Shown in pieces: positions 18,801-42,942 of a stretch of 64,000 bases of DNA. Within the stretch, counting starts at the first letter, position 1. Each line of letters starts with the position of its first letter. The notes under the pieces are model-generated. The model did no database searches. It was not told where the DNA came from and saw nothing but the letters and a program-made list of their open reading frames with translations. Origin of the DNA: Actinomycetales bacterium (GTDB taxonomy: Bacteria > Actinomycetota > Actinomycetes > Actinomycetales > Cellulomonadaceae); the NCBI GenBank assembly GCA_020444245.1, contig JAHLLI010000005.1, positions 1-64,000 of the forward strand. Direction: 5' to 3'. The translations under genes and the position numbers were made by a program.

Positions 18801-19583
18801 TCAGGGCGCGAGCGTGTTCGCGAACACCTGCCACGCCAGCAGCGACTTCGCGACCAGGCTCAGCGTGATGTAGGCGCGCTCACCCACCAGGTAGTCCTTC
18901 CAGCGGCCGACCTGCTTGTACTGCAGCCACTGGTTGATCGCGAAGGTGTTGAACAGCAGGAAGATCGACACGATGATCCCGTAGACGAAGGCCGGCGGCT
19001 CGGCGCCGGACGTCGAACCGGGCGCGATCAGCAGGAACACCACGGCGAGCCACGGGACGATGCCGACCATGCTGCCGAAGACGAAGGGCAGCATCCCGCC
19101 CTCGCCGGGCACCTCGTACTTCTCCTGGACCCAGCCGAACAGGATCATCGCCGCGTTGACGGCGAAGATCGCGCTGAGCGCGATGATGTCGGTGATCCCG
19201 GTGATCTGTGCGATGAGGAAGATCATGATCGAGGACGACAGCCCGTACTCGACCCATCTGGCGATGTTGCGCTGCTGGGCCAGGCCCGCGGCGTAGCGCC
19301 GGAAGCCGGCGGGGGTGACGAGCCACAGGTGGGCGATCGCGCTCAGCGCGAAGAAGCCGAACACGCCCCAGGCCAGCTGCACGTCGAACAGCGCGACGCG
19401 CTCGAAGTTCGTCGACCCGGGCGGCCCGCCCAGGTACTGGGCGGTGACCGGCAGGCGGAAGTCGGTGGCGAGCAGCACGATCGCGACGGCCTGGACCGCG
19501 TGCACCACCCCGGCGACCAGGTTGTAGCGGCGCAGGCCGGCGAGTCTCTCGGCCGGGATCTCGATCGGGGTACGGGTGGCCAT
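18801..19583 (-). CDS. heliorhodopsin
   Basis: 260 aa, seven membrane helices, no signal peptide. It is a heliorhodopsin and not a type-1 pump: the retinal Schiff-base lysine is K246 in SLVAKSLLAWQ (helix G), the counterion is Glu112 in RWVEYGLSSS (helix C), and the conserved heliorhodopsin histidines are at H28 and H85. The stretches NAAMILFGWVQEKY, APGSTS and GERAYITLSLVAK match the founding actinobacterial heliorhodopsin closely. The pump motifs DTD/DTE/NTQ are absent. Heliorhodopsins sit inverted in the membrane and have slow photocycles; their role is unresolved (signalling, enzyme regulation or transport in different reports). No retinal-synthesis gene is in the window. Confidence 0.97.
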   Translation of the reverse strand: MATRTPIEIPAERLAGLRRYNLVAGVVHAVQAVAIVLLATDFRLPVTAQYLGGPPGSTNFERVALFDVQLAWGVFGFFALSAIAHLWLVTPAGFRRYAAGLAQQRNIARWVEYGLSSSIMIFLIAQITGITDIIALSAIFAVNAAMILFGWVQEKYEVPGEGGMLPFVFGSMVGIVPWLAVVFLLIAPGSTSGAEPPAFVYGIIVSIFLLFNTFAINQWLQYKQVGRWKDYLVGERAYITLSLVAKSLLAWQVFANTLAP

Positions 19584-19815: not shown

Positions 19816-19873
19816 GCGCGGCCCTCGCCCGCTAGTCTCGCCCCGGACGACCCCCGGCGACCTGGAGGTGCGC

Positions 19874-20755
19874 ATGGCGGCGGATCCGCTCCAGCTCTTC
19901 CCCGGCAAGGTGTTCATCTCCACCGCGCTCGAGGCGCTGGTGACCAAGACCCACATGTCCGGTGAGCTGCGCAACCGCTACCTGCAGCGTGCGGCGATGG
20001 CGGGGTTCCTCATCGGGCTGTTCTACGTGACGTCGTACGGGGTGCGCGTCGCGTTCGAGCAGCTGCCGGCCGCGGGCGCGGGCTCCTTCGCCGGGGTCGG
20101 AGCGGTGGCCGGGGCGTTGACCTTCGGCTGGGCCCTGGTGTTCATCTACTACACCAAGTCCGAGCTGCTGACCTCCAACATGATGCTGGTGATGGTCGGC
20201 GCGTACTACCGGCGCACCGGGTGGCGCCACGCGCTGCGCCTGCTGACCCTGTGCTACCTCGGCAACCTCGTGGGCGGGCTGGTGCTCGCCGGGCTGCTGC
20301 GGCTGTCGTCGCTCACCGACGGTGCGGTGATGGACCTCATGGTCGCCTCGGTGGACCACAAGCTCGACTACGTGGCCTCGGGCCCCGGCGGCTGGGGCGA
20401 CCTGCTGGTCCGGGCCATCCTGTGCAACTTCTGCATCAACATCGCGATGCTCATGGTCTACAACGGCCTCATCAAGGACGACCTCACGCGGTCGCTGGTG
20501 ATGATCGTCGCGGTGTTCATCTTCGCGTTCCTCGGCCTGGAGCACTCGGTGGCCAACACGGTGCTGTTCCTGGTGGTCGGCCTGGCGCACGGCGTGCATG
20601 TCGGGCTCGCGGCGGGCAACGTGGCGATCGCGCTGGTGGGCAACTTCATCGGCGGCGGGCTGCTGATCGGCACCTACTACGCCTACGTCAACGACGACCG
20701 GAAGTGGCATCCGCGCAGCGCCAACGAGGGTGCGCTGCCTGACACGGAGGCGTGA
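19874..20755 (+). CDS. formate/nitrite transporter (FNT) family channel
   Basis: 293 aa. GGAGG at 19864-19868 favours ATG 19874 over the GTG at 19868 that it overlaps. FNT fold with six membrane helices: PGKVFISTALEALVTKT at the N-terminus, the Omega-loop region YYTKSELLTSNMML, the helix break LCNFCINIAML, and FLGLEHSVANTVLF, where the conserved channel histidine would be expected in NxxH-like form. FocA/NirC/HSC members pass formate, nitrite or hydrosulfide. No pfl, nir or asr gene is adjacent, so the anion is not defined. Confidence 0.9.
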   Translation: MAADPLQLFPGKVFISTALEALVTKTHMSGELRNRYLQRAAMAGFLIGLFYVTSYGVRVAFEQLPAAGAGSFAGVGAVAGALTFGWALVFIYYTKSELLTSNMMLVMVGAYYRRTGWRHALRLLTLCYLGNLVGGLVLAGLLRLSSLTDGAVMDLMVASVDHKLDYVASGPGGWGDLLVRAILCNFCINIAMLMVYNGLIKDDLTRSLVMIVAVFIFAFLGLEHSVANTVLFLVVGLAHGVHVGLAAGNVAIALVGNFIGGGLLIGTYYAYVNDDRKWHPRSANEGALPDTEA

Positions 20756-23873: not shown

Positions 23874-25022
23874 TCAGAACCTGTCGAGGACGGTCAGGGC
23901 GACACCGTCGTGCTCGCCGAGCGCGCCGTCGGACACCAGGGCGACCCAGCCGCCGCGGTGCAGCACGGTCTCGATGAGCTCGTCGACCAGGTCGTCGATG
24001 ACGTCGGGGTGGTCGACGTCGGCCGCGGGGGTCAGATGGTCGCCGTCGGGGCTGAGCCGGGCCGGCACGAAGAGCCCTTCCTCCACCGCGAGCATCTCCG
24101 GGCGCTCGCGTCGGGCCGCGAGCCACGCCGCGGCCATCCCGCTCACCGCGCGCCCCTCGCCGACCCGGCGGTCCACGAGGGCCAGGGCCTCCGTCTCCCG
24201 GGAGCGCAGGTACGACTCGACGACCGGGCGGATCCGGGCGGCCAGCTGGTCCAGCGGTGCGCCGGCGAGGTTGCCGGTCACGGTGCCGGCCAACCGCCCC
24301 AGGTGCCGCGAGAGGCCCGTGAAGATCGTCAGGAGCTTGGCCGGACCGACCACGATCAGAGGCATGGGGCGGGCGGCGAGGTGCGCGCCGAGCGCGTCGT
24401 CGACGTCGCGCAGGAACGCGGTCACCTCGGCGTCGCGCAGCCGCGGCCGGTCGGGGTGCCGGCCCCGGGGAGCGCGGTCGTCGCGCCCCCGCTCGAGCGG
24501 GAAGCGGCGCCCGGGTGCCGGGCGCACGCTGCCGAACACCCCTTCGTACAGCTGGACCTGCCGCTCGGAGAGGACAAGGACGCTGTGCCGCGGCGTGCGG
24601 TGCATCGCGCGCACGAGGTCGCGGGTGGCGAACGTGGGATCCACGACGGCGCGGTCGACCACCTCGACGGGAAGCGTGAGCCGCAGCGAGGTCGAGGCGT
24701 TCACGAAGAGCGCCACCGCGGCTCCGGTCGGGTCGGCCGCGGCCGCGTCGACCACCCGGTCGACCTCGTGGAGCAGGTGCTGGTGCGCGTCCGACCCGGC
24801 GTCCTCCGCCGCGATCCGGTCGGCGACCTGTCGCGCCAGCCCGCGCAGCCGGGAACGGTCGGTCTGGTGCATCGACGCGCCGGGTCGGGTGTGCATGAGG
24901 ATCGACACCGACGGGTAGGCGCGCGCCCCCTGCAGGCGCAGGACGAGGGCGGGGTCGGGCGGGCCGACCTGCGGCGACGTCGCCGCGGACGGGCGTGCGA
25001 GAGCAGCTTGCGTGGTGGTCAT
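23874..25022 (-). CDS. BaeRF-family protein (bacterial archaeo-eukaryotic release factor-like)
   Basis: 382 aa from ATG at 25022 with a good GGAGGAAC site; upstream in-frame codons lack one. The fold is suggested by RAYPSVSILMHTRPG, LVLSERQVQLYEG (eRF1 domain-2-like strand), PLIVVGPAKLLTIF and the C-terminal GGWVALVSDGALGEHDGVALTVLDRF, which fits domain 3. BaeRFs are thought to act at the ribosome under stress, but none in this subfamily has a firmly established reaction. It runs in the same direction as TerC-HTH, 7 bp upstream of terC, so the three may form one stress operon. Confidence 0.85.
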   Translation of the reverse strand: MTTTQAALARPSAATSPQVGPPDPALVLRLQGARAYPSVSILMHTRPGASMHQTDRSRLRGLARQVADRIAAEDAGSDAHQHLLHEVDRVVDAAAADPTGAAVALFVNASTSLRLTLPVEVVDRAVVDPTFATRDLVRAMHRTPRHSVLVLSERQVQLYEGVFGSVRPAPGRRFPLERGRDDRAPRGRHPDRPRLRDAEVTAFLRDVDDALGAHLAARPMPLIVVGPAKLLTIFTGLSRHLGRLAGTVTGNLAGAPLDQLAARIRPVVESYLRSRETEALALVDRRVGEGRAVSGMAAAWLAARRERPEMLAVEEGLFVPARLSPDGDHLTPAADVDHPDVIDDLVDELIETVLHRGGWVALVSDGALGEHDGVALTVLDRF

Positions 25023-25112
25023 CGGTTCCTCCGGTCCAGCGGTGACCGGAGGTCTCTCCCGGCCCTCAGGGCCCGGCTCGCCGGGCCGGCATGGGCCGGC
25101 CGTCCTGACGAC

Positions 25113-25164
25113 GAAGCACGCTCGGGGATACTCCCCTCCTGGGAGATAAGTGAAGCACGCTTCA
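25113..25164 (-). promoter_or_regulatory. repeat/palindrome upstream of the BaeRF gene
   Basis: GAAGCACGCT occurs at 25113-25122 and 25152-25161 (39-bp spacing); the second copy is embedded in the palindrome TGAAGC-AC-GCTTCA (25151-25164). This is 91-142 bp before the BaeRF start, consistent with regulator binding. The 473-bp gap 25023-25495 between the BaeRF and acyl-ligase genes holds no convincing gene, only this and the next site. Confidence 0.45.
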
Positions 25165-25364
25165 TGTGTTTGCGCCAGACGAGCCGCGTGTGACGCCCGG
25201 CGCATGCCGAGGTGGATGGGCAGGAGGGCCGCGGCTCTCGGGCGGACCGAGAGGAGGCGGCCTGAGGCGGACTCCGCTCACCCGACCGACGTGGGCCGAT
25301 CGGGCGATTCGGGTCGAACGTCATTGCTGCTGTCCGTTTTGCCCGAGTACGGTCCAGGGAGCAG

Positions 25365-25495: not shown

Positions 25496-26992
25496 ATGAC
25501 CGCGACCGACGCCGGGCCTGCCGATGTCTGGACCATGTTCCTGGCGACGGCCCAGAGGTCGCCGGCGGCCGTGGCCATCGAGTCGCCCGGTGCCTCCCTG
25601 ACGTTCGAGGAGGTCGTCGCGGCCTCCCGCCGGCTGGCCGCCGCCTTCGGCGACGCCGGCCTGGGCTCGGGCTCGGTGGTTCACCTGGCGCTGGGGAACA
25701 CCCCGACGTTCCTCCCGGCCTTCCTGGCGCTGCGCTCGATGGGCGTCACCGTGGGGCTGGTCTCCTCCCGCTCCCGGGACTCCGAGCTCCAGGCGGTGTC
25801 GGAGCAGATGCCGCCGGACGCCTTCCTCGTGGCCTCCGACCTGGTCCCGGTGGTCCTGCACGCCGTGGGCGGGACCGAGGTGGCGGTGGGCTCCCTGGGC
25901 GCCGGGCACCCCGACCTCACGCTCGTGCGGCAGCAGCCGTCGGAGCCCCGGCCGGCCGGGGACCTCGCCATCGTGAAGTTCACCTCGGGATCCACCGGCA
26001 GGCCCAAGGGCGTGGGCATGACCGAGCGGAGCCTGGTCGCCGAGGCGCACAACTGCGTGGCGACCTTCGGGCTGCGAGCCGGTGACCGGGTGGTCGCGCC
26101 GGTGCCGCTCTCGCACGCCTACGGCTTCCACCTCGCGATCCTGCCCGTCCTCCTCGCGGGCACGTGTGCGGTGGCCCACGCCTCGTTCATCCCCAAGCTC
26201 GTCCTCGGCGCGCTCGCGCACCCGGCCACGGCGATGTTCCTCGGCGTGCCGAGCATGTACCGGGTGCTGCTCGAGACCGGCCGCGCCGACGCCCCGGACC
26301 TGTCGCACGTGCGCTACATGGCGTCGGCCGCAGCCCCGCTCCCGCCCAGCCTCGTGGCGCGGTTCCACGAGGCGTGGGGCATCGCGGTCTGCAACGTCTA
26401 CGGGTCCTCCGAGACCGGCTTCGCGGCCGCGAACGTGCCCAGCGAGGCGCTCGACCACCCCGGGTCCGTCGGCCGGCAGGCGATCGCCGTGCAGGTCCGG
26501 GCCATCGACGAGGACGGCAACACGCTTCCCCCCGGCGAGGAGGGCGAGATCGCGGCCAGCGGCCGCGGCGTGGGCAGCGGCTACGTCAGCGGCGAGCGCG
26601 CCGAGGCCTTCATCGACCTCGGCGACGGCGTCACGGAGTACCGGACCGGCGACATCGGGGTGATCGATGCCGACGGCTATATCTTCCTGCTCGGCCGTCG
26701 TGACCACGTCATCAACGTCGGCGGCCTCAAGGTCTATCCCGCCGAGGTCGTGCGCGCGCTGGAGCAGGTCCCCGGGGTGACCGGCGCGCGCGCCTTCGCC
26801 GCCAAGGACCCGCAGGGCGAGGAGGTCGTGCACGCCGCCGTCACCGTCTCCGGTCCCACGTCCGAGTCGGAGATCCTCGCGTTCTGCCGGTCGAACCTCG
26901 CCGAGCACAAGGTGCCCCGGCAGGTGCAGGTCGTCGACTCCCTCGAGTCCGCGGAGGAGACCAAGATGAGCAAGCTGAGCGGAGGCGCGTGA
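25496..26992 (+). CDS. acyl/aryl-AMP ligase (ANL superfamily)
   Basis: 498 aa from ATG at 25496 (GGGAG 8 bp upstream). ANL signatures in order: FTSGSTGRPKGVGM (P-loop-like A3, about 161), SHAYGFHLAI, VYGSSETGF (A5), YRTGDIG (A7), GRRDHVINVGGLKVYPAEV (A8) and a C-terminal ETKMSK lysine (A10). It activates a carboxylic acid as acyl-AMP and, since a free-standing carrier protein gene overlaps its stop (TGATG), should load it there. It is shorter than fatty-acyl-AMP ligases and lacks their insertion. The acid is not predictable here. Confidence 0.9.
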   Translation: MTATDAGPADVWTMFLATAQRSPAAVAIESPGASLTFEEVVAASRRLAAAFGDAGLGSGSVVHLALGNTPTFLPAFLALRSMGVTVGLVSSRSRDSELQAVSEQMPPDAFLVASDLVPVVLHAVGGTEVAVGSLGAGHPDLTLVRQQPSEPRPAGDLAIVKFTSGSTGRPKGVGMTERSLVAEAHNCVATFGLRAGDRVVAPVPLSHAYGFHLAILPVLLAGTCAVAHASFIPKLVLGALAHPATAMFLGVPSMYRVLLETGRADAPDLSHVRYMASAAAPLPPSLVARFHEAWGIAVCNVYGSSETGFAAANVPSEALDHPGSVGRQAIAVQVRAIDEDGNTLPPGEEGEIAASGRGVGSGYVSGERAEAFIDLGDGVTEYRTGDIGVIDADGYIFLLGRRDHVINVGGLKVYPAEVVRALEQVPGVTGARAFAAKDPQGEEVVHAAVTVSGPTSESEILAFCRSNLAEHKVPRQVQVVDSLESAEETKMSKLSGGA

Positions 26993-27264
26993 TGGAGACC
27001 GCACAGGTCGTGGACCGGCTGCGCACCGTGCTGTCGGCGTCGGTCCTCGGCGACCGGGGTGGCGAGGTGGCCGGCGACGTGCCCTTCGGCCACGAGGGGG
27101 TCGGTCTCGACTCGCTCGCGCTCGTGCACCTGCTGACCAGGATCGAGAAGGAGTTCGACGTCGAGCTGCCCTACGACATGTGGGCCGACGCCTCGCGCCT
27201 CTCGCTGGACGACTGCGCCGCCGCGATCACGCGGGTGCGAACCCCAGGAGGCCCGCCCGGGTAG
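26992..27264 (+). CDS. acyl carrier protein
   Basis: 90 aa; ATG 26992 chosen over GTG 26989 because GGAGG (26981-26985) spaces better. A four-helix carrier protein with the phosphopantetheine serine S41 in VGLDSLALVHLL. It accepts the acyl group from the ligase and presents it to the NRPS condensation domain encoded next. No phosphopantetheinyl transferase is in the window. Confidence 0.9.
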   Translation: METAQVVDRLRTVLSASVLGDRGGEVAGDVPFGHEGVGLDSLALVHLLTRIEKEFDVELPYDMWADASRLSLDDCAAAITRVRTPGGPPG

Positions 27265-27306
27265 CCCGCCCACCCCACCACCGCTCTCCGAGCGAGGAGA
27301 CGTTCC

Positions 27307-30300
27307 ATGCCACCCCCACCTCTGGCTGCCGGAACCGCCACCGTCCGAGACCTCACGCGCAACCAGCTGAACATCTGGCTGGGTCAGCAGGCTGCCCCCG
27401 GGCTCCCCGTGTTCAACGAGCTCGCCGTGGTCGTCATCGACGGGCACGTCGATCGCGGCCTCTTCGACCGAGCGTTCCAGGCGGTCATCGACGGGACCGA
27501 CGCGCTGCGCCTCGCCGTCGACGACGAGGCCCCCGAGCCGCGGTTCCGGGTGCGCGAGCGGCTGAGCTACCGCTCGCCCCTGGTCGACCTGTCCGGCGAG
27601 CCCGACGCGGAGGTGGCGCTGGAGGAGTGGGCCAGGGGCTATGCGGACCTGATGCTCGACCTCTCCGACCGGCTGTTCGACTCGACCCTGGTGCGGCTGT
27701 CGGAGGACCGGTGGGCGTGGGCCCTGCTCCAGCACCACCTCGTGACGGACGCGACCTCCCTGACCCTCCTCGTCGAGCGGCTCAGCGACCGGTACCGGCA
27801 GCTCGCGGACACCGGCGAGCTGCGGCCGGTGGACCACCCGCAGCTGGTCGACTACATGTCCGGGCTCGAGGAGCTCACGAGCGCTCCCGGGTACGCCGCG
27901 ACCGAGGCGTTCTGGCAGGAGCGGATGACCGGCGCCCCGCCGCCGATGGTCTTCTTCGACGGCCGGTCGCTCGCGCGGGACTCGCTGCACCGTCGTGAGC
28001 GTCACGACGTCGCCCTGGGCGCCGAGATGTCCCGCCGCATCCGGGACCTCGCCGGGCAGGACGGTATCCGCCTGGTGTCCGAGGACTTCTCGCTGTTCAG
28101 CGTGTTCGCGGCGGCGTTGTTCACCCAGCTGTACCGCACCAGCGGCGAGCCGCGGCGCTCCATCGGCGTGCCGTGGCAGAACCGGCCGTCCGAGGCGGCG
28201 GACACCGTCGGGCTGCTGATGGAGCAGGACCCGTTCACCGTCACGGTGGGTGACGACGACTCCTTCCGCAGCGTCGTCGCCAAGGTGCACCGCGAGGCGC
28301 TCACCGTGATGCGCCACCTGCCCTACGCCGCCGGCAACCCCGGCGGCCGGCTGTACGACGTCGCCCTCAACGTGGTCAAGGTCGCGGTCGGTGACGTCGC
28401 CGGCATGCCGGCGCACACGCGCTGGTACCGGCCCACGTGGGGCGAGGGGAGCGTCCTCCTGCACGTGCACGACCTGGCCGGCACCGGCGAGCTGACGCTC
28501 TCGTTCGACTTCAACACCGAGCTGTTCAGCCCGACCCAGCGCGAGTCGTGGATCGCCCAGTTCCGCCGGCTCCTGGAGTCGTGCACCCGCGACCCGGGGA
28601 CACCGATCGCGGCGATGGAGATCCTGCCGGACGAGGAGCGTGCGCGCCTCGCCGCCTGGAACGAGACGGGCCGTGACTACCCTCGCGGATCGACCACGAT
28701 CGACCTGGTCGAGGCCCGGGCGGCCGAACGCCCGCAGGACCGGGCGGTCACCTTCGGCGAGGAGACGGTCACCTACGCCGAGCTCCTGCGGCGGGTGGAC
28801 CGCCTGGCGGGGGAGCTGCAGGCGCACGGCGCCGGTCGAGGCACGTTCGTGGGGGTGTGCCTGCACCGTTCGATCGACATGCTCGTCGCGGTCCTGGGCG
28901 TCATGCGGTCCGGGGCCGCCTACGTCCCCCTGGACCCGGCCTTCCCCGCCGACCGCCTGGACTTCATGCTCGAGGACTCGGGGAGCACCGTCCTGGTCAC
29001 CCAGCGTGCCCTGGCCGGGGCGGTCTCCGCGGACGGGTGCGCCGTCCTGATGGTCGAGGACGTCGCCGACGCGGCGACCGGCGCGGGGGAGGGACGCGCG
29101 CCGAGCCCCGTCCGGGCGACTCCGGACGACCTGGCCTACGTGCTGTACACCTCCGGTTCGACCGGACGGCCCAAGGGCGTCGAGGTGCCGCACCGCGCGC
29201 TGACCAACTTCCTGTGGTCCATGCGTGAGACGCCCGGCTGCGGCCCGGACGACTCGCTGCTCGCGGTCACCACGCTGTCCTTCGACATCGCCGGGCTCGA
29301 GCTGTTCCTGCCGCTGATCAGTGGCGGGCACGTCGAGATCGCCTCCCGCGCCGACGCGATCGACGGCCGGCGGCTGCGCGAGCGGCTGGACCGCGGCGGC
29401 ATCACGATCCTGCAGGCCACCCCGGCGACCTTCCGGATCCTGCTGGACGCCGGCTGGACCGGCACGCCCGGCCTCACCGTGCTGGTGGGCGGCGAGCCCC
29501 TGCCGCCGGAGCTGGTGGGCCCGCTGCTCGACGGCACGGAAGCGCTGTGGAACATGTACGGCCCGACGGAGACCACCATCTGGTCCTCCGTCGACCGGAT
29601 CGTCTCGCCCGACGACCCGATCACCGTTGGCCACCCGATCGCGAACACCACGTTCCACGTCCTGGACCGGGGCGGCCGGCCCACCCCCGTCGGCGTGCCC
29701 GGCGAGCTGTACATCGGCGGGGACGGGCTCGCCCGCGGCTACCACGACCGACCCGAGCTCACGGCCGAGCGCTTCGTCACCGTCCCGACCTCCACCACGC
29801 CCGACGCGCGGCTGTACCGCACCGGCGACCTGGTCCGCTTCGCCGAGGACGGCAAGGTCGTCCACCTCGGGCGCCTGGACAACCAGGTCAAGATCCGCGG
29901 CTTCCGCATCGAGCTCGGGGAGATCGAGACGATCCTCGGCGAGCACCCGGCGGTCCGCCAGGCGGTGGTCGACGCCCGCTCGGTCGGCGCCGCCACCCCG
30001 GTCCTGGTCGCGTACTACGTCGCCCGGGACGGCGAGGAGCCCACGGCGCAGGACCTGCGCGAGCACCTGCGCGCCGCCCTGCCGGACTACATGGTGCCGA
30101 GCCACATCGTCGCGCTCGACAGCGTGCCCCTGACGCCCAACGGGAAGGTCGACCGCAAGGCCCTGCCGGACGTCGACGACGCCCAGGCCGCCGTCGGCCG
30201 CAGCCTGGTCCCGCCGCGCACGCCGGTCGAGCGGCAGCTCGCCGGGATCTGGGCGCAGGTGCTGCACACCGAGCGGATCGGGGTGCACGACGACTTCTTC

Positions 30301-31596
30301 GAGATCGGCGGTCACTCGCTGCTCGCGTTGCAGATGCTCAACAAGGTGGTGGCGGAGCTGGGGGTCGACGTCCCGCTGGACCGGATGATCGAGGCCTCGA
30401 CGGTCGAGGCCCTCGCGGCCGTTGTCGAGTCGATGCGCGGCCCGGACGCCGACGACGGCTACGTGGAGGCTCTCACCGGGGTGTGGCGCGAGGTCCTGGG
30501 CGTCCAGGACGTCTCGCCGGACGACGACTTCCTGGCGCTCCAGGGCGACCGCGACCTGGTCGACGAGCTGCTGGCTCGGACCCGCCGGGCCGTCGGGGTC
30601 GTGGCCGAGGGCCTGTCGGCGGGCGACTTCCGGCGCCGGCCGACCATCCGCGCGATGGCCGAGACCCTGCGCCGCAACGAGGCGCCGACGCCCTCGCTGG
30701 TCGTGCCGCTGCGATCGACCGGGTCCAAGACCCCGCTGTTCCTGGTGCACGCCGGGGGCGGCTACGTGTTCTTCTACCGGGCGCTCGCCGAGGAGCTCGA
30801 CCCCGAGCGGCCCGTCTACGGCGTGCGCGCCGAGTCCGCACGGGACGCCGGCGGACGGGCCTTCGTCGACGCGCCCCGCCTCGAGGACGTGGCGGCGCAC
30901 TACGTCGAGGAGGTCGTCGCGGTGCAGCCCACCGGTCCGTACCTGCTCGGCGGTGCGTGCGCCGGAGGGATCATCGCGTTCGAGATGGCCCGCCAGCTGC
31001 TGGCCCGGGGTGAGACGCTGGCCGGCCCGGTCCTCCTGTTCGACTCGTTCCTGAGCAACAACCCCTACGTCGAGGGGGAGGACCTCACGGCGCTGCGCGC
31101 CGCGCGGCTCTACCCCGAGCCGAGGGTGGCACGGGTGGCGCGCAGCGCGCGGCGCGCGCTGGCGGAGGCGAGGTCGCTGGGGCTCGTCGCGGGCGCGGCC
31201 CACGCCCTCCGCACCGGGTTCCGCTTCGCCGGGCGAGCGCTGCGCCGGGTCGTGCGGCCGTCGGGCCCCCGGCTCCTGCCGGGCGAGGTGGCGATCCCGG
31301 ACGCCGGGCCGGCCACGGCCGGGTCCAGCCCGGACGCGCTGCGGGTCCGCGAGATGGCCGAGTCGGTGAACGTTGCGGTCCGGCTGTCCAACGGCTACCA
31401 CCCGCAACGGTTGCCGGTGGGTCTGGTGTGCTTCGAGGCCCCGCAGCTCGGACCGTCCGGGTTGTCGTGGAGCGGCGTCGCGGCCGGTGGGATCGTGGTG
31501 CACCGCGCCGTCGGCGACCACTTGGACATGGTGGAGCACCCCGAGGTGACCCGGACCGCGAGCCTGGTGGACGAGGCGCTGGCCGGCGTCGTGTGA
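27307..31596 (+). CDS. single-module NRPS: C-A-T-T(degenerate)-TE
   Basis: 1429 aa. Condensation domain about 12-430 with active site H143-H144-LVT-D148 (an HHxxxDA variant of HHxxxDG). Adenylation domain about 460-960: TYAEL, LYTSGSTGRPKG, LSFDIAGLELF, NMYGPTETTIW, LDNQVKIRGFRIELGE, NGKVDRKAL. Its pocket residues read roughly D-I-L-Q-L-G-M-I-W-K, which as I recall resembles glycine codes. Carrier domain with S1004 (GGHSLLALQ). A second carrier-like domain (about 1055-1120) has R1082 where the serine should be (LQGDRDLV), so it cannot be phosphopantetheinylated. Type I thioesterase about 1135-1429 whose nucleophile is Cys1218 (GGACAGG) instead of Ser, with H1405. Product: an acylated amino acid or a cyclised derivative released by the Cys-TE. 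Confidence 0.93.
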   Translation: MPPPPLAAGTATVRDLTRNQLNIWLGQQAAPGLPVFNELAVVVIDGHVDRGLFDRAFQAVIDGTDALRLAVDDEAPEPRFRVRERLSYRSPLVDLSGEPDAEVALEEWARGYADLMLDLSDRLFDSTLVRLSEDRWAWALLQHHLVTDATSLTLLVERLSDRYRQLADTGELRPVDHPQLVDYMSGLEELTSAPGYAATEAFWQERMTGAPPPMVFFDGRSLARDSLHRRERHDVALGAEMSRRIRDLAGQDGIRLVSEDFSLFSVFAAALFTQLYRTSGEPRRSIGVPWQNRPSEAADTVGLLMEQDPFTVTVGDDDSFRSVVAKVHREALTVMRHLPYAAGNPGGRLYDVALNVVKVAVGDVAGMPAHTRWYRPTWGEGSVLLHVHDLAGTGELTLSFDFNTELFSPTQRESWIAQFRRLLESCTRDPGTPIAAMEILPDEERARLAAWNETGRDYPRGSTTIDLVEARAAERPQDRAVTFGEETVTYAELLRRVDRLAGELQAHGAGRGTFVGVCLHRSIDMLVAVLGVMRSGAAYVPLDPAFPADRLDFMLEDSGSTVLVTQRALAGAVSADGCAVLMVEDVADAATGAGEGRAPSPVRATPDDLAYVLYTSGSTGRPKGVEVPHRALTNFLWSMRETPGCGPDDSLLAVTTLSFDIAGLELFLPLISGGHVEIASRADAIDGRRLRERLDRGGITILQATPATFRILLDAGWTGTPGLTVLVGGEPLPPELVGPLLDGTEALWNMYGPTETTIWSSVDRIVSPDDPITVGHPIANTTFHVLDRGGRPTPVGVPGELYIGGDGLARGYHDRPELTAERFVTVPTSTTPDARLYRTGDLVRFAEDGKVVHLGRLDNQVKIRGFRIELGEIETILGEHPAVRQAVVDARSVGAATPVLVAYYVARDGEEPTAQDLREHLRAALPDYMVPSHIVALDSVPLTPNGKVDRKALPDVDDAQAAVGRSLVPPRTPVERQLAGIWAQVLHTERIGVHDDFFEIGGHSLLALQMLNKVVAELGVDVPLDRMIEASTVEALAAVVESMRGPDADDGYVEALTGVWREVLGVQDVSPDDDFLALQGDRDLVDELLARTRRAVGVVAEGLSAGDFRRRPTIRAMAETLRRNEAPTPSLVVPLRSTGSKTPLFLVHAGGGYVFFYRALAEELDPERPVYGVRAESARDAGGRAFVDAPRLEDVAAHYVEEVVAVQPTGPYLLGGACAGGIIAFEMARQLLARGETLAGPVLLFDSFLSNNPYVEGEDLTALRAARLYPEPRVARVARSARRALAEARSLGLVAGAAHALRTGFRFAGRALRRVVRPSGPRLLPGEVAIPDAGPATAGSSPDALRVREMAESVNVAVRLSNGYHPQRLPVGLVCFEAPQLGPSGLSWSGVAAGGIVVHRAVGDHLDMVEHPEVTRTASLVDEALAGVV

Positions 31597-31618
31597 CGGC
31601 GGCGCGCGGCGCCGGCGG

Positions 31619-32215
31619 TCACACGGCGCGTGCGCCCTCGGGTGCAGGGTCGGTGCTGATGCGCGCGTGCAGGTGCATGTCGTGCCAGCCGTCCGCGTGG
31701 AGCACCGCGCTGCGCAGCGTCCCCTCCGCGCGGAAGCCCGCGGCCAGCGCGACACGGCACGACCCCGGATTGGCCGTGGAGTGCATGAGGTCGAGCCGAT
31801 GGAACCCCGTCTCGAACGCCCACCCGACGAGGGCCTCGACGGCGGCCCGTGCCACACCCCGGCCTCGCGCGGCGGGCATGGTCCAGTAGACGAGCTCGCC
31901 GGACCCGTCCCCGGGGTGCATGACCCGGAACCCGACGCGCCCGAGAACACGGTCCTCGTCGCCGGCGACGGCCCAGCTGGCGGCGTTCTCGGCGCGCCAC
32001 CCGGCGCGCCAGCGTTCGATGGTCTGCGCCGCCTCCTGCGGGTCGAGCGTGAGCGCGTGCCAGCGGCGGATCGCGTCGTCGGAGTAGGCCGCGACGAGCT
32101 CGGCGACGTCCGTGTCCCGCCAGGGTCGAAGCACGACACCCCGGCCCGAGACGGTCGGCTGCGCCGCAGCCCCGAGGGTGCCCGACGCGATCACGGGAGC
32201 GACGAGGAAGCTCAT
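31619..32215 (-). CDS. GNAT-family N-acetyltransferase (RimJ/RimL-like)
   Basis: 198 aa. GNAT fold with VLRPWRDTDVAEL (beta1), VGFRVMHPGDGSGELVYWTMPAARGRGVARAAVEAL (acetyl-CoA loop RGRGVA) and HRLDLMHSTANPGSCRVALAAGFRAEGTLR, the RimJ/L-type ending. It acetylates a protein N-terminus or a small amine. It converges on the NRPS gene with a 22-bp gap, so it is probably not part of that operon. Confidence 0.9.
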   Translation of the reverse strand: MSFLVAPVIASGTLGAAAQPTVSGRGVVLRPWRDTDVAELVAAYSDDAIRRWHALTLDPQEAAQTIERWRAGWRAENAASWAVAGDEDRVLGRVGFRVMHPGDGSGELVYWTMPAARGRGVARAAVEALVGWAFETGFHRLDLMHSTANPGSCRVALAAGFRAEGTLRSAVLHADGWHDMHLHARISTDPAPEGARAV

Positions 32216-36030: not shown

Positions 36031-36066
36031 AGGATGGGCACACCGGGCCGGACGGAGGTGGGTGCG

Positions 36067-36855
36067 ATGGGGCAGGGGCCCCCGGCGGCACGTGCCGCGC
36101 TCGCGGTGCTCACCCACCTCGCCCGCCAGGCGGCGCCGGTGGGGGCCGCGGCCGTGGCCCGCGACCTGGGGCTGCCGCGCTCCACGGCGTACGAGCTGCT
36201 CCAGGCGCTCGTCAGCGAGGGGTACGTCGTCCACCTCGCCGACGAGCACGCCTACGGGCTCGGGCTGAGCGCCCTCGACCTCGGCGCGGCGTACGCCCGT
36301 CAGGCACCGCTCGCCCGGATCGCCCGTCCCGTGCTCGCGGCCATGGTCGACGAGACCGGGCTGCACGCGCACCTGTCGGTGCTGCACGGCCGGGACACCC
36401 TGTACCTCGTGGAGCAGCGTGCGACCCGCGGGCCGACGCTGGTCACCGACGTCGACGTGCGGTTGCCGGCCCACCTCACGGCCAGCGGTCGCGCCGTGCT
36501 CGCGGCGCTGCCCGCCTCGCACGTGCGGGCGCTGTTCCCCAGCTCGGCCGCGCTCGTCGACCGCAACGGCTCGGGGCCCCGGACGCTCGCGGAGCTGCGG
36601 GCCGTGCTGCGCCGGGTCCGGGCCCGCGGCTGGGCCGAGGAGGACGGTGAGATCACCGAGGGCCTGGCGTCCGTGGCCGTGCCGGTGCGTGACCACCTCG
36701 ACTACCCGGTCGCCGCGGTCGCGCTGACCTTCCGTGCGGACCTCGTCGCCGCGGAGCGCAGGGCAGAGCTCGCGGCGGCGGCCCGGGGCGCGGCGACGCT
36801 GATCTCCCGGCGGCTCGGCGGGCACGACCCCCTCACCGCGCCGCGCCCCCGCTGA
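36067..36855 (+). CDS. IclR-family regulator, probably of the hut operon
   Basis: 262 aa from ATG at 36067, preceded by GGAGG with a good spacing; the earlier ATG 36034 has AGAGG touching it and is less likely. wHTH at about 8-60 (VGAAAVARDLGLPRSTAYELLQALVSEGYVV) and an IclR effector domain (LPAHLTASGRAVLAALPASHV, ITEGLASVAVPVRDHLDYPVAAV). It lies directly before hutH with a probable operator between, so it should control histidine degradation, with urocanate or a later intermediate as effector (inference). Confidence 0.9.
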   Translation: MGQGPPAARAALAVLTHLARQAAPVGAAAVARDLGLPRSTAYELLQALVSEGYVVHLADEHAYGLGLSALDLGAAYARQAPLARIARPVLAAMVDETGLHAHLSVLHGRDTLYLVEQRATRGPTLVTDVDVRLPAHLTASGRAVLAALPASHVRALFPSSAALVDRNGSGPRTLAELRAVLRRVRARGWAEEDGEITEGLASVAVPVRDHLDYPVAAVALTFRADLVAAERRAELAAAARGAATLISRRLGGHDPLTAPRPR

Positions 36856-36868
36856 GGCCGCCGGCGAG

Positions 36869-36888
36869 GTGTCCAGGATCTCGGACAC
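36869..36888 (+). promoter_or_regulatory. probable IclR operator of the hut operon
   Basis: GTGTCC-N8-GGACAC, a perfect inverted repeat centred 62 bp before the hutH ATG. It falls in the 85-bp gap between the regulator and hutH, which has no other notable structure. Confidence 0.6.
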
Positions 36889-36940
36889 TTCGCGGCTCTG
36901 AGGCCTTCTGCGGGGCCCGCGCGAGGGTTTGACTGACGCC

Positions 36941-38533
36941 ATGCTCACCCAGCCGACCCTCGCGCGCAGCGACCTGGCGGTCATGGTCGACGTCGGCCCG
37001 CTCCGGCCCGAGGACGTCGTCGCCGTGGCCAGGCGCGGCGCACCCGTGCGGCTCACCGACGCCGCGCGCGCCGCCGTCGCCGCAGGCCGCGCCGTGATCG
37101 ACGAGCTCGCCGCCGACTCCCGTCCGCACTACGGCGTCTCGACCGGGTTCGGGGCGCTCGCCACCACGAGCATCCCGGCCGAGCGGCGTCAGGACCTGCA
37201 GCGGTCCCTGGTCCGCTCGCACGCCGCGGGCTCAGGCGCCGAGGTCCCGCGTGAGGTCACCCGGGCGCTGATGCTGCTGCGCCTGTCGACACTGGCCACC
37301 GGGCGCACCGGGGTCCGGCCGGTGGTCGCGCAGACCTACGCCGACCTGCTGTCGGCCGGGATCACGCCGGTGGTGCACGAGTACGGCTCGCTCGGGTGCT
37401 CGGGTGACCTGTCCCCGCTCGCGCACTGCGCCCTGGCGGTCATGGGCGAGGGCACGGTGCGCGACGCGACCGGTGCCCTGCTGCCGGCCGCCGACGCCCT
37501 GGCCGCGGCGGGCATCGAGCCGGTCACCCTGGTCGAGAAGGAGGGCCTGGCCCTGGTCAACGGCACCGACGGCATGCTCGGCATGCTGCTGCTGGCCGCG
37601 CACGACCTGTCGGTCCTGATCTCCACCGCTGACCTCGCCGCGGCGCTGACCATCGAGGCGCTACGCGGCTCGTCCACGGTGTTCGACGCCGACCTGCAGG
37701 AGCTGCGCCCCCACCCGGGCCAGGCCGCGTCGGCCGCCAACCTGCGCCACGTGCTGCACGACTCCGCGCTGGTCCAGCACCGCACCGACGGCGTGTTCAC
37801 CCGGGTCCAGGACGCCTACTCGCTGCGCTGCGCCCCGCAGGTGCACGGCGCGGCGCGGGACACCCTCGACCATGCCCTGACCGTGGCGCGCCGCGAGCTC
37901 GCGTCCGCGATCGACAACCCGGTGGTCACGCTCGACGGGCGGCTGGAGTCCAACGGCAACTTCCACGGCGCACCCATCGCCTACGTGCTCGACTTCCTCG
38001 CGATCGCGGTGGCGGACCTCGCCTCGATCAGCGAACGACGCAGCGACCGGATGCTCGACACCGCCCGCAGCCACGGCCTGCCGCCGTTCCTCGCCGACGA
38101 CCCCGGCGTGGACTCCGGCCACATGATCGCCCAGTACACCCAGGCCGGGATCGTCTCCGAGCTCAAGCGGCTGGCCGTGCCGGCGAGCGTGGACTCGATC
38201 CCGTCCTCGGCCATGCAGGAGGACCACGTCTCGATGGGCTGGTCCGCCGGCCTCAAGCTGCGCCGGGCGGTCGACGGCCTGCGCGACGTGCTCGCCGTCG
38301 AGATCCTCACCGCATGCCGGGCGCTGGACCTGCGCGCCCGCACCGACCCCGACGCCGCGCCGTCCCGGACGGCCGCCGCGGTGCTCGCCGCCCTGCGCGA
38401 GCGCGTCGCCGCGCCCGGCCCTGACCGGTTCCTGTCCCCGCAGATCGAGGCCGCCGTGGACCTGGTCCGCGACGGCAGCCTGCTGGCCGCCGCCCGCACC
38501 GCGCTCGCCGCCGACGGCCACGAGCTGCTCTGA
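36941..38533 (+). CDS. hutH: histidine ammonia-lyase
   Basis: 530 aa from ATG at 36941 (GAGGG lies 13 bp upstream; TTG 36929 is too close to it). Converts L-histidine to urocanate and ammonia. The MIO-forming triad is C153-S154-G155 in [16 protein letters not shown], the Cys-Ser-Gly form as in streptomycete HAL, and [17 protein letters not shown] and [13 protein letters not shown] (active-site loops) are present. First gene of hutH-hutU-M20-hutF-hutI; no earlier promoter-proximal transporter is encoded. Confidence 0.96.
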
Positions 38534-38567
38534 CCACATGTCCGCCGCACCCCGGAAGGACCCCGCG

Positions 38568-40235
38568 ATGACCGACCTGTCCGTCCCGCACACCGTGCGC
38601 GCCCCGCGCGGCACCACCCTGACCGCCCGCGGCTGGGGCCAGGAGGCAGCGCTGCGGATGCTGCAGAACAACCTCGACCCGGAGGTGGCCGAGCACCCCG
38701 AGGAGCTCGTGGTCTACGGCGGCTCGGGCAAGGCGGCCCGGGACTGGCCGTCCTACGCGGCGCTGGTGCGCACCCTGACCACGCTCGGCGACGACGAGAC
38801 GATGCTCGTCCAGTCCGGCCGGCCGGTCGGCGTGATGCGCACCCACGAGTGGGCGCCGCGCGTGATCCTGGCGAACTCCAACCTGGTCGGGGACTGGGCG
38901 ACCTGGGACGAGTTCCGCCGGCTCGAGGCGCTCGGCCTGACCGCCTACGGCCAGATGACCGCCGGGTCGTGGATCTACATCGGTACCCAGGGCATCCTGC
39001 AGGGCACGTACGAGACGTTCGCGGCCGTGGCGCGCAAGCGGTTCGGCGGCACGCTCGAGGGCACCGTCACCCTCACCGGTGGGCTCGGCGGGATGGGCGG
39101 CGCCCAGCCGCTCGCCATCACCATGAACGGCGGCGTGGCGATCTGCGTGGACGTCGACGAGTCCCGGATCCGCCGTCGCATCGAGCAGCGGTACCTGGAC
39201 GTCGCGGCCGACTCGCTCGAGCACGCCCTGGATCTCGCGGCCGAGGCCAGGCGCGCGCGGCGCCCGCTGAGCATCGGCGTGCTCGGCAACAGCGCGGACG
39301 TCGTCCCGGCGCTCCTGGCCGGCGGCGCCGAGATCGACGTGGTCACCGACCAGACCTCCGCGCACGACCCGCTGGCCTACCTGCCGCTCGGGATCGCCTT
39401 CGAGGACTGGCACGAGGCGCGCACCACCGACCCGGTCGGCTTCGCCAAGGCCGCTCGGGAGTCGATGGCTCGCCACGTCGAGGCGATGGTCGGGTTCCAG
39501 CGGGCCGGCGCCGAGGTGTTCGACTACGGCAACAACATCCGCACCGAGGCCAAGGCGGCGGGCTACGCCGACGCGTTCGAGTTCCCCGGGTTCGTGCCCG
39601 CCTACATCCGGCCGCTGTTCTGCGAGGGCAAGGGCCCGTTCCGCTGGGCGGCGCTGTCCGGGGATCCGAAGGACATCCACGCGACCGACCAGGCGATCCT
39701 CGACCTCTTCCCGGAGAACGAGTCCCTGACGCGCTGGATCCGGCTCGCGCAGGAGAAGGTCGCGTTCCAGGGCCTGCCGGCGCGGATCTGCTGGCTGGGC
39801 TACGGCGAGCGCGACCGCGCGGGCCTCCGGTTCAACGAGCTGGTCGCCTCCGGGGAGGTGTCCGCGCCGATCGTGATCGGCCGCGACCACCTGGACTCCG
39901 GCTCGGTCGCCAGCCCGTACCGGGAGACCGAGGCCATGCTCGACGGGTCCGACGCGATCGCCGACTGGCCGCTGCTCAACGCGATGGTCAACACCGCCTC
40001 GGGCGCGACCTGGGTGTCCATCCACCACGGCGGCGGGGTCGGCATCGGCCGCTCCATCCACGCCGGCCAGGTCACCGTCGCCGACGGCACCCCGCTCGCG
40101 GCGGAGAAGATCGCGCGCGTGCTGACCAACGACCCGGGGACGGGCATCATCCGGCACGTGGACGCCGGGTACCCCGAGGCGCAGGCGGCCGCCGCCGAGC
40201 ACGGCGTGCGCATCCCGATGCAGGAGGGCCGGTGA
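38568..40235 (+). CDS. hutU: urocanate hydratase
   Basis: 555 aa; ATG 38568 has GGAAGGA 7 bp upstream and is preferred to ATG 38538. Adds water to urocanate, with bound NAD+ as electrophile, to give 4-imidazolone-5-propionate. Signatures: [62 protein letters not shown] and [17 protein letters not shown], the last two being strict family blocks. Full length. The next gene's GTG overlaps the stop. Confidence 0.97.
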
Positions 40236-41575
40236 TCGGCGACGCGACGACCAGCGCGGCGTCCGGCATGGCACCCGGCGGCCCGGTCCTCGACCCCGTG
40301 GCGCTGCTCGCCGAGATCGACGACGTCGGCCGCGCGGCCGGCGGCGGGTGGTCCAGGCTGGTGCACACCGACGCCGAGCGGACCCTGCGCGACTGGTTCA
40401 CCGAGCACGCCACCCGCCTCGGCCTGGACGTCGAGGAGGACCGCAACGGCAACCTGTGGGCCTGGTGGGGTGGCGACCTGCCCGGCGCCGACGCGCCCGG
40501 CGCGGTGCTGCAGGTCGGCTCGCACCTGGACTCGGTGCCGGCCGGCGGCGCGTACGACGGACCGCTCGGCGTCGTGACCGCGCTCGCCGCCGTCTCCCGG
40601 CTGCGGGCCGAGGCTTTCACGCCGCACCGGCCCGTCGTGGTGCCGGTGTTCGCCGAGGAGGAGGGTGGCCGGTTCGGCATCGCCTGCGCCGGGTCGCGCC
40701 TGATGACCGGGGCGCTGGACCCGGTGCGCGCGGGCGCCCTGGCCGACCCGGACGGCACCACGGCTGCCGACGCCGCGCGCCGGGTCGGTGCTGACCCGAC
40801 GGCCTGGGGTCCCGACCCGGTACGGGTGGCCCGGATCGGCGAGGCCGTCGAGCTGCACGTCGAGCAGGGGCACCTGCCGACCTCGGGCGGCTGCCGGCAC
40901 GGTGCGATGGGCCTGGCCGAGGCGGGCGCACCGCTCGGCCTGCTCACCGAGATCTGGCCGCACGGACGCTGGCGGTTCGACCTGGTGGGCGAGCCCAACC
41001 ACGCCGGGACCACGCCGCTGGACCGCCGCGTCGACCCGATGCTCGCGCTCGCCGAGGGTGTGCTGGCCGCACGCCGGGCGGCCGAACGGCACGGTGTGCT
41101 CGCCACGGTCGGCAAGGTCAGGGTGGATCCTGGCGCGGTGAACGCGATCCCGTCGGCCGCCACGTTCTGGCTCGACGCGCGCGGCGCGGACCCGGCGGCC
41201 GTCGACGCGGCCGTGGCCGACATCGCCGCGGCACTCGGCGCGGCACCGGTGCGCGAGTCCTGGACACCGGTCACGCGGTTCGACGCCGGGCTGGGCGCCC
41301 GCCTGGCCGGCCCGGTCCGCGCGGCGCTCACCGCCGCGGGCGCGCCGACCGGCACGGACGGGCAGCCGCTGCTGCCTACCCTGCCCTCCGGCGCCGGGCA
41401 CGACGCCGGGGTCCTCGCCGAGGCGGGCGTGCCCACCGCGATGCTCGTGGTGCGCAACCCGTCGGGGATCTCGCACGCCCCGGGCGAGCACGCCGAGGAC
41501 GGTGACGTCCGCCTCGGGGCGGCCGCGCTCGTCGAGATCATCCGCGACCGGGCCGACGCAGGCTGGCAGGGATGA
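40232..41575 (+). CDS. M20-family amidohydrolase (allantoate amidohydrolase-like), probable N-formylglutamate hydrolase
   Basis: 447 aa, GTG start overlapping the hutU stop with AGGAGGG just upstream. M20 dizinc hydrolase of the allantoate/N-carbamoyl-amino-acid branch: H98 (GSHLDSV), D109 (AYDGPLG) and EEE 142-144 ([10 protein letters not shown]), ELHVEQG and GAGHDAGVL. Because it lies inside a hut operon that has HutF (which makes N-formylglutamate) but no HutG, the simplest role is hydrolysis of N-formylglutamate to glutamate and formate. Family annotations call it allantoate amidohydrolase, but no other ureide gene is here. Confidence 0.85.
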
Positions 41576-42942
41576 CGACGACGACCCGACCGGCCGGCAC
41601 CGAGGGGGCCTACTGGCTCCCCGCGGCCTGGCTGGGCCGGCCACCCACCGGGCGGGTCGCGGCCGGGGTCCGGGTGCGGCACGGCGCCGGTCTGGTGGTC
41701 GGGGTCGACGAGGGCGTCGAACCCTCGCCCGGCGACGTCGTGCTCGACGGGCTCGGGCTGCCGGCGTTCGCCGACGCGCACTCCCACGCGTTCCACCGCG
41801 CGCTGCGCGGGCGCACGCACGCCGGGGGCGGCACGTTCTGGACCTGGCGCGAGCAGATGTACGCGGTCGCCGCCCGGCTCACCCCGGAGATCTACCTCGA
41901 CCTGGCGACCGCGGTGTACGCCGAGGCCGCGCTGGCCGGTGTCGGCGTGGTGGGGGAGTTCCACTACGTGCACCACCGCCCCGACGGCACGCCGTACCTG
42001 CCCGGCACCGCGATGGCCGAGGCGCTGGTCGAGGCCGCGGCCCGGGCCGGGGTGCGGCTGACGCTGCTCGACACGCTGTACCGGCGCGGGGGCGTGGACG
42101 AGGCCGGGCGGCCGGTCCCGCTCTCCGCCGAGCAGCGCCGCTTCGACGACGGCTCGGTCGAGGCCTGGGCAGCGAGGCGCGCCGGACTGCCCACGGCCGC
42201 GCACGTCCGCCAGGCGCGTGCGCTGCACTCGGTGCGCGCCGTCGGCGCCGCGGACCTGGCGGCGGTCGCCGCGCTCGGCGAGAGCGGTCCGCTGCACGTG
42301 CACGTCGCCGAGCAACCCGCCGAGGTGACCGCGTGCCTGGCCGAGCACGGCGTCACGCCGGTCGGGCTGCTCGACCGTCACGGCCTGCTCGGGCCGGACC
42401 TGGTCGCGGTGCACGCCAACCACGTGACCGACGCCGACGTCGCGCTGCTCGCCGAGCGGGGCGCCGGCGTGTGCGCGTGCCCGACCACCGAGCGTGACCT
42501 CGCCGACGGTCCGGGTCGCGGCGGCGACCTCGCCGCGGCCGGGGTGCCCCTGAGCCTGGGCACCGACCAGCACGCCGTGCTCGACATGCTCGAGGAGGCG
42601 CGGGGGCTGGAGATGCACGAGCGGTTGCGCACCGGCCGGCGCGGCACCTTCACCCCCGCCGCCCTGCTGGCCGCCGCGACCGCCGATGGCTACGCCGCCC
42701 TCGGGTGGGACGGCGGCCGGATCGAGGTGGGTGCGCCGTGCGATCTCACGGTCCTGGACGCCGCGTCGGTGCGTACGGCGGGAGCCCGGGCGGATCAGCT
42801 GTGGCTGGCCGCGTCGGCCGCGGACGTGCGGCACACCGTCGTGGCGGGACGGCCCGTGGTGCGCGACGGACGCTCGATCGTCGGCGACCCGGCCGAGCTG
42901 CTCACGCGGGCGCTCGCGGCGCTGCAGGATGGGTCGCCATGA
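41572..42942 (+). CDS. hutF: formimidoylglutamate deiminase
   Basis: 456 aa, ATG overlapping the previous stop. Amidohydrolase superfamily TIM barrel: metal ligands [12 protein letters not shown] at residues ~61-72, [22 protein letters not shown] and [10 protein letters not shown]. Converts N-formimidoyl-L-glutamate to N-formyl-L-glutamate plus ammonia. This fixes the pathway as the HutF route, which needs a formylglutamate hydrolase next. Its stop overlaps hutI by ATGA. Confidence 0.94.

Follow-up and report, generated by a model that had tools for sequence, protein, structure and literature searches.

A single-module nonribosomal peptide synthetase with a serine-less carrier domain before a cysteine thioesterase, and its likeness to the AB3403 system

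AB3403 (A1S_0115; PDB 4ZXH and 4ZXI) of Acinetobacter is a single-carrier nonribosomal peptide synthetase (NRPS) with a preference for glycine. It lies in an operon that also encodes an acyl ligase and an acyl carrier protein (ACP) needed for acinetin 505 (PMC5376624). It is the closest known system to the locus presented here, which occupies 25496-31596 of a 64,000-nucleotide stretch (the window: positions 1 to 64,000, forward strand, of contig JAHLLI010000005.1, assembly GCA_020444245.1) from an Actinomycetales bacterium of the Cellulomonadaceae. The locus consists of three genes, all on the + strand, for an acyl ligase, an ACP and an NRPS of 1429 amino acids. The NRPS is a single module with the order condensation (C), adenylation (A), first carrier (T1), second carrier-like domain (T*) and thioesterase (TE). 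Two other described systems bear on it. For ObiF1 and SulM, two papers tie ring formation to a cysteine nucleophile together with a move of the triad aspartate to position II, with glycine at position I in ObiF1 (PMC6668435, PMC11298585). For TomB of the tomaymycin pathway, published work describes an adaptor domain, similar to a peptidyl carrier protein (PCP), that recruits a loaded carrier to the C domain (PMC11186497).

We take the cluster to function much as the AB3403 system does, and T* is the unusual part. In our reading the NRPS would make an acyl-glycine, and T*, which has the predicted PCP fold but no serine, would be a spacer or adaptor that delivers T1 to the TE; taken as a whole, we give this reading slightly better than an even chance. 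The ligase would activate a carboxylic acid and load it onto the free ACP. A starter-type C domain would then join the acyl group to glycine, which, judging by domain family and specificity code, would be activated by the A domain and held on S1004 of the first carrier. With its Cys-Asp-His triad, in which the aspartate sits at the ordinary position I, the TE would take the acyl-glycyl group onto Cys1218 and release it by hydrolysis or by transfer to a nucleophile. T* may serve as a spacer or PCP-like adaptor that helps loaded T1 reach the TE, for which the TomB adaptor offers a precedent. The anatomy of the module and the shared residues are observed directly and the fold is a prediction, whereas we infer the substrate, the product and the part given to T* in this scheme.

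Comparison with AB3403

At the sequence level, the window and the Acinetobacter operon share the C-A-T-TE order and a glycine-like A domain. Both have a cysteine TE (motif GGWCFGG in AB3403) with the aspartate at position I, the AB3403 position being taken from PMC11298585, and both operons contain an acyl ligase and a free ACP. AB3403 ranked first among solved relatives when the A core was searched alone. It was also the nearest match in the sequence search with T*-TE (E 5e-24, aligned over T* and the N-terminal half of the TE) and the first Foldseek match of the modelled T1-T*-TE region. The differences are that AB3403 has one carrier directly before the TE, whereas T* stands between them in the window, and that the acinetin operon also holds A1S_0113 (dehydrogenase) and A1S_0116 (possible secretion). 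Neither type of protein was found in a Pfam scan of 20 neighbour proteins, two of which had no family. Because T* intervenes and these two genes were not found adjacent, we call the cluster AB3403-like and do not file it as a member.

The carrier-like domain T* and its one known relative

T* spans 30451-30684 (+) and contains the motif LQGDRDL and extra residues at VAEG. Arginine (R1082, codon CGC at 30550) occupies its carrier-serine column; T1 (30214-30432, +) keeps its serine (S1004, codon 30316). The replacement proposed in the initial annotation is therefore borne out, and it is rare: among 298 distinct carriers from 148 loci, serine was present in 294, the column was incomplete in two, and serine was absent in just two. 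The profile behind this count was built from 31 relatives' carriers, so that more diverged carriers could escape it. Judged by its sequence, T* lacks a phosphopantetheine serine at the normal site and would not qualify as a functional peptidyl carrier domain, although it passes the PF00550 cut-off when scored alone (23.9 vs 20.8 bits).

The other serine-less carrier belongs to a Verrucomicrobiia metagenome-assembled genome (JAHCLO010000027; locus L003) with the architecture A-T-T*-TE. Its T* reads LQGQVDL, with valine in the serine column, and its TE has the motif GGACVGG and keeps the histidine; each T* thus stands directly before a cysteine TE. Carrier-profile scores of the two T* were 42 and 21.5 bits. 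On the TE tree, L003 (entered there as L113) is the nearest to the window TE, with a path of 0.74 vs 1.86 for the next and a support of 90. The closest relative does not carry the two serines, having a valine carrier and a cysteine TE, and the claim of a paired replacement was not refuted by it. The two T* also share residues that set them apart from other carriers. In the GG motif a Gly is replaced by Gln, the normally hydrophobic residue after the serine position is Asp, and an insertion contains Ala and Glu. None of the 278 other carriers has any of these four states, and the Gly that follows occurs in 0.7% of them (280 carriers of at least 55 residues compared, the pair's own duplicate loci excluded). 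The carrier tree has too few columns and was used for shared residues only.

These residues bear on the possibility that T* is merely left over from a tandem carrier pair, dead and without a role in an otherwise ordinary acyl-glycine synthetase. The serine is replaced differently in the two members (Arg and Val), the L003 T* has lost its Pfam match, and T* is less conserved between them (33% identity) than its neighbours A (57%), T1 (48%) and TE (45%), all of which would suit decay. Decay fits less well with derived residues and an insertion shared by genomes of two phyla, with reading frames that are open in both, and with a confident carrier-fold model of the window T*. We consider a remnant unlikely.

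The model of T1-T*-TE had a mean predicted local distance difference test score (pLDDT) of 82.9, with a poorly modelled lid. In the VIA-align comparison of this region, NocB (Z 25.4) and AB3403 (Z 24.7) tied, also with EntF and another TE; that table barely tests T*, which was hence folded separately, with a pLDDT of 88.5. The 50 Foldseek matches listed for T* alone were mostly carrier domains, many with template modelling (TM) scores of 0.7-0.77, and included the SulM PCP-TE and the TomB adaptor (PDB 8QSX; E 0.098, TM 0.71). T* is thus predicted to have a carrier fold, and at the level of that predicted fold the suggestion in the initial annotation that it serves docking or spacing gains support. 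Like T*, the TomB adaptor has a carrier-like fold and adjoins a catalytic domain that works with a carrier. It stands before a C domain and acts for a carrier on a separate protein (PMC11186497), whereas T* lies between a carrier and the TE of one and the same chain.

The same placement would also suit a gate, in which T* mimics a carrier and holds the carrier site of the TE until loaded T1 displaces it, slowing premature hydrolysis. The carrier fold predicted for T*, its place immediately before the TE, the loss of the serine and the change of the next residue are all compatible with this. No precedent for such gating turned up in searches of the open-licence PMC literature, and we find the idea quite improbable.

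A broader proposal is that T* represents a separate class of TE-dedicated, serine-less, carrier-fold adaptors that recruit or gate the loaded carrier at release, in differing biosynthetic settings and in bacteria from two phyla; we put it forward only tentatively and lean against it. Between the window and L003, identity is 22% for C, 57% for A, 48% for T1, 33% for T* and 45% for the TE. In L003 a C-A-T gene precedes the A-T-T*-TE gene and a phosphopantetheinyl transferase (PPTase) gene adjoins it, whereas the window has the ligase and the ACP. From these sequences, A-T-T*-TE looks like a unit that occurs with different front ends.

Several observations weigh against the acyl-glycine synthetase with a T* adaptor. 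With regard to L003, its gene context differs, its C domain is just 22% and its T* just 33% identical to those of the window, its T* has no Pfam match at E 0.01, and no open reading frame (ORF) in its 24-kb locus was matched best by the ligase or the ACP. Only two T*-TE members are known here, which leaves a single comparison as the basis for conservation. Each T* on the carrier tree has some other carrier as its most identical match (44% and 43%), and the path from the window T* to that of L003 (1.84) is in a near-tie with the path to an ordinary carrier (1.88). Foldseek E-values for T* alone were weak among the matches listed, the best being 0.012 and none below 0.001. With regard to AB3403, the whole-protein search places LgrA, with two modules matched, above it, and VIA-align does not separate it from NocB, EntF and the further TE. 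Finally, the nearest matches of the ligase, feruloyl-CoA and fatty-acyl-CoA synthetases, do not fix its substrate.

The cysteine thioesterase

The TE spans 30697-31593 (+). Cys1218 (TGC at 30958) lies within GGACAGG, as the initial annotation had it, and the domain also has Asp1246 (31042) and His1405 (31519). The accompanying view that cysteine TEs are rare did not hold. Among 91 distinct TE cores sampled from the query's relatives, 39 have Cys, 50 have Ser and two could not be read, proportions that describe the relatives and are not a census. The commonness of Cys among the relatives' TEs is firm; we are unsure of the number of its origins. On a tree of 88 cores (three of the 91, one Ser and two unread, were dropped as short), the minimum number of Ser/Cys changes was 17 as drawn, 15 when branches with support below 80 were collapsed and 3 when those below 95 were collapsed; support was below 80 for 43 of the 85 inner branches.

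The initial annotation had also linked the cysteine to strained rings such as beta-lactones and beta-lactams. The window TE resembles those of ObiF1 and SulM in its TE fold and in having its cysteine in a GxCxG motif, and one of the closest matches of the window C domain is that of ObiF1. The triad is arranged differently. In the model, Asp1246 directly follows strand 277-280, which places it at position I, and the site of position II, where strand 408-412 (LVCFE) is followed by APQLGP, has no Asp. The aspartate of ObiF1 and SulM is at position II and the SulM nucleophile is flanked as Gln-Cys-Asn (PMC6668435, PMC11298585), whereas the residues in the window are Ala-Cys-Ala. A ring-forming TE of this kind would be expected with an A domain that selects a residue bearing a beta nucleophile, and the specificity predicted from the window code is glycine-like. 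Closure of a strained ring is disfavoured because glycine lacks a beta nucleophile. With Cys TEs common in the relatives as well, we hold formation of a strained ring or a macrocycle to be very improbable, and the strained-ring reading was rejected on the position of the aspartate and the A-domain code. In sum, the architecture, R1082, Cys1218 and the glycine-like code of the initial annotation stand, and its spacer idea is supported as far as the predicted fold goes; the rarity of Cys TEs and the strained rings do not.

A separate observation concerns the triad histidine in 32 T-TE stretches (35 places minus L046, L080, the second L010 and the second, short L004, plus the window), whose rows are related and not independent. 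It was missing within one column of its usual place in 11 of 19 Cys-type TEs (L017, L035, L040, L021, L005, L009, L012, L011, L022, L025 and L075), as against 0 of 13 Ser-type TEs. With three columns allowed on either side, it was absent in 10 of the 19.

Front end, distribution and surroundings

Gene calls and Pfam matches agree with the three-gene content and the C-A-T-T*-TE order first proposed. The AMP-forming acyl ligase (25496-26992, +; PF00501 and PF13193) has the motifs FTSGSTGRPKG, RTGD and GRRDHVINVGG, and a lysine near its C-terminus is tentatively the catalytic residue. The free-standing ACP (PF00550, +) starts at 26989 (GTG) or 26992 (ATG) and ends at 27264, with the GLDSL serine at 27112; its start overlaps the ligase stop (ATG at 26992). 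The NRPS gene (27307-31596, +) matches PF00668, PF00501, PF13193, PF00550 in two stretches and PF00975. A scan for promoters and terminators gave no promoter-like element and one terminator-like element vs 0.9 expected. Opposite the NRPS, an antisense open frame of 1801 codons (26734-32139, -) is most likely an effect of the 73% G+C content.

In a phmmer search against solved structures, the top rows for the C domain (27325-28626, +; HHLVTDA at 27733) were RzmA-Cs, then ObiF1, whose C domain we take to be of the starter type, and CdaPS1. At E 1e-6 the C domain had no match to AB3403. Both RzmA-Cs and CdaPS1-Cs belong to the starter C domains (PMC7804268). By sequence, the closest kin of the window C domain are lipid-starter domains, and it would be classed as a starter type. 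For the A domain (28687-30171, +), visual reading of the motifs that align with AB3403 gave the code DILQLGMIWK. This code presumably resembles the known glycine code, and glycine, the specificity expected in the initial annotation, is also what we predict from it. Elsewhere in the genome there are two matches to the ACPS family, one of them in a 252-codon frame that could encode an Sfp-type PPTase.

A contig scan with six exact peptide patterns kept at least 78 loci. The T*-TE profile (A1) was searched in six phylum samples of 396, 387, 264, 339, 277 and 281 genomes, the phylum names being inferred for samples centred on loci, and no third T*-TE member was found in them; mostly 4-7 candidates per genome were scored, and a member could slip through. 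Among the 396 genomes of the window's phylum, the window scored 721 bits and the next 154 (34 passed E 1e-15). Among the 387 of L003's phylum, the L003 genome scored 788 bits and the next 157 (42 passed E 1e-20). Matches at E 1e-45 were obtained in 0 of 264, 0 of 339, 2 of 277 and 2 of 281 genomes; the four had 157-170 bits and all lie within the 148 loci. Two sets of seven chosen genomes were searched with laxer limits; six genomes passed in one set and three in the other, and the best besides that of L003 was the genome of L017, with 187 bits. Known positives were recovered only in the 396- and 387-genome samples and in one seven-genome set, so that the 0 of 264 and 0 of 339 are uninformative alone. 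Among the rows listed for 18 other genomes of the genus there was no full-length match, the best covering residues 454-1039. In a plasmid search, the ten matches listed of 2291 records were 32-34% identical, and one more was tallied at 60-80%. Searches of the open-licence PMC literature for cysteine TEs or inactive carriers yielded no relevant papers other than those cited here.

A wider cluster was rejected, as the flanking genes (TerC, baeRF, GNAT, MFS, subtilase and others) have no evident tie to the operon among the 20 proteins scanned, which do not comprise every ORF. Adjoining a TerC-family gene, a baeRF family 3 release-factor-like gene (23874-25205, -) is divergent from the NRPS operon. 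A heliorhodopsin gene (18801-19583, -; PF18761, E 2.9e-96) adjoins a formate/nitrite transporter gene (19868-20755, +). Probable histidine-use genes at 36034-42939 (+) encode an IclR regulator, an aromatic amino acid lyase, a urocanase and an amidohydrolase; the ORFs between them were not scanned.

For the TE family, these results are a caution that a cysteine in the TE motif alone is not a pointer to strained-ring products. Should T* assist the transfer to the TE, it would be a small, portable part with which product release might be improved or timed in synthetase engineering. Its action at the release step, if true, would parallel that of the TomB adaptor at the condensation step.

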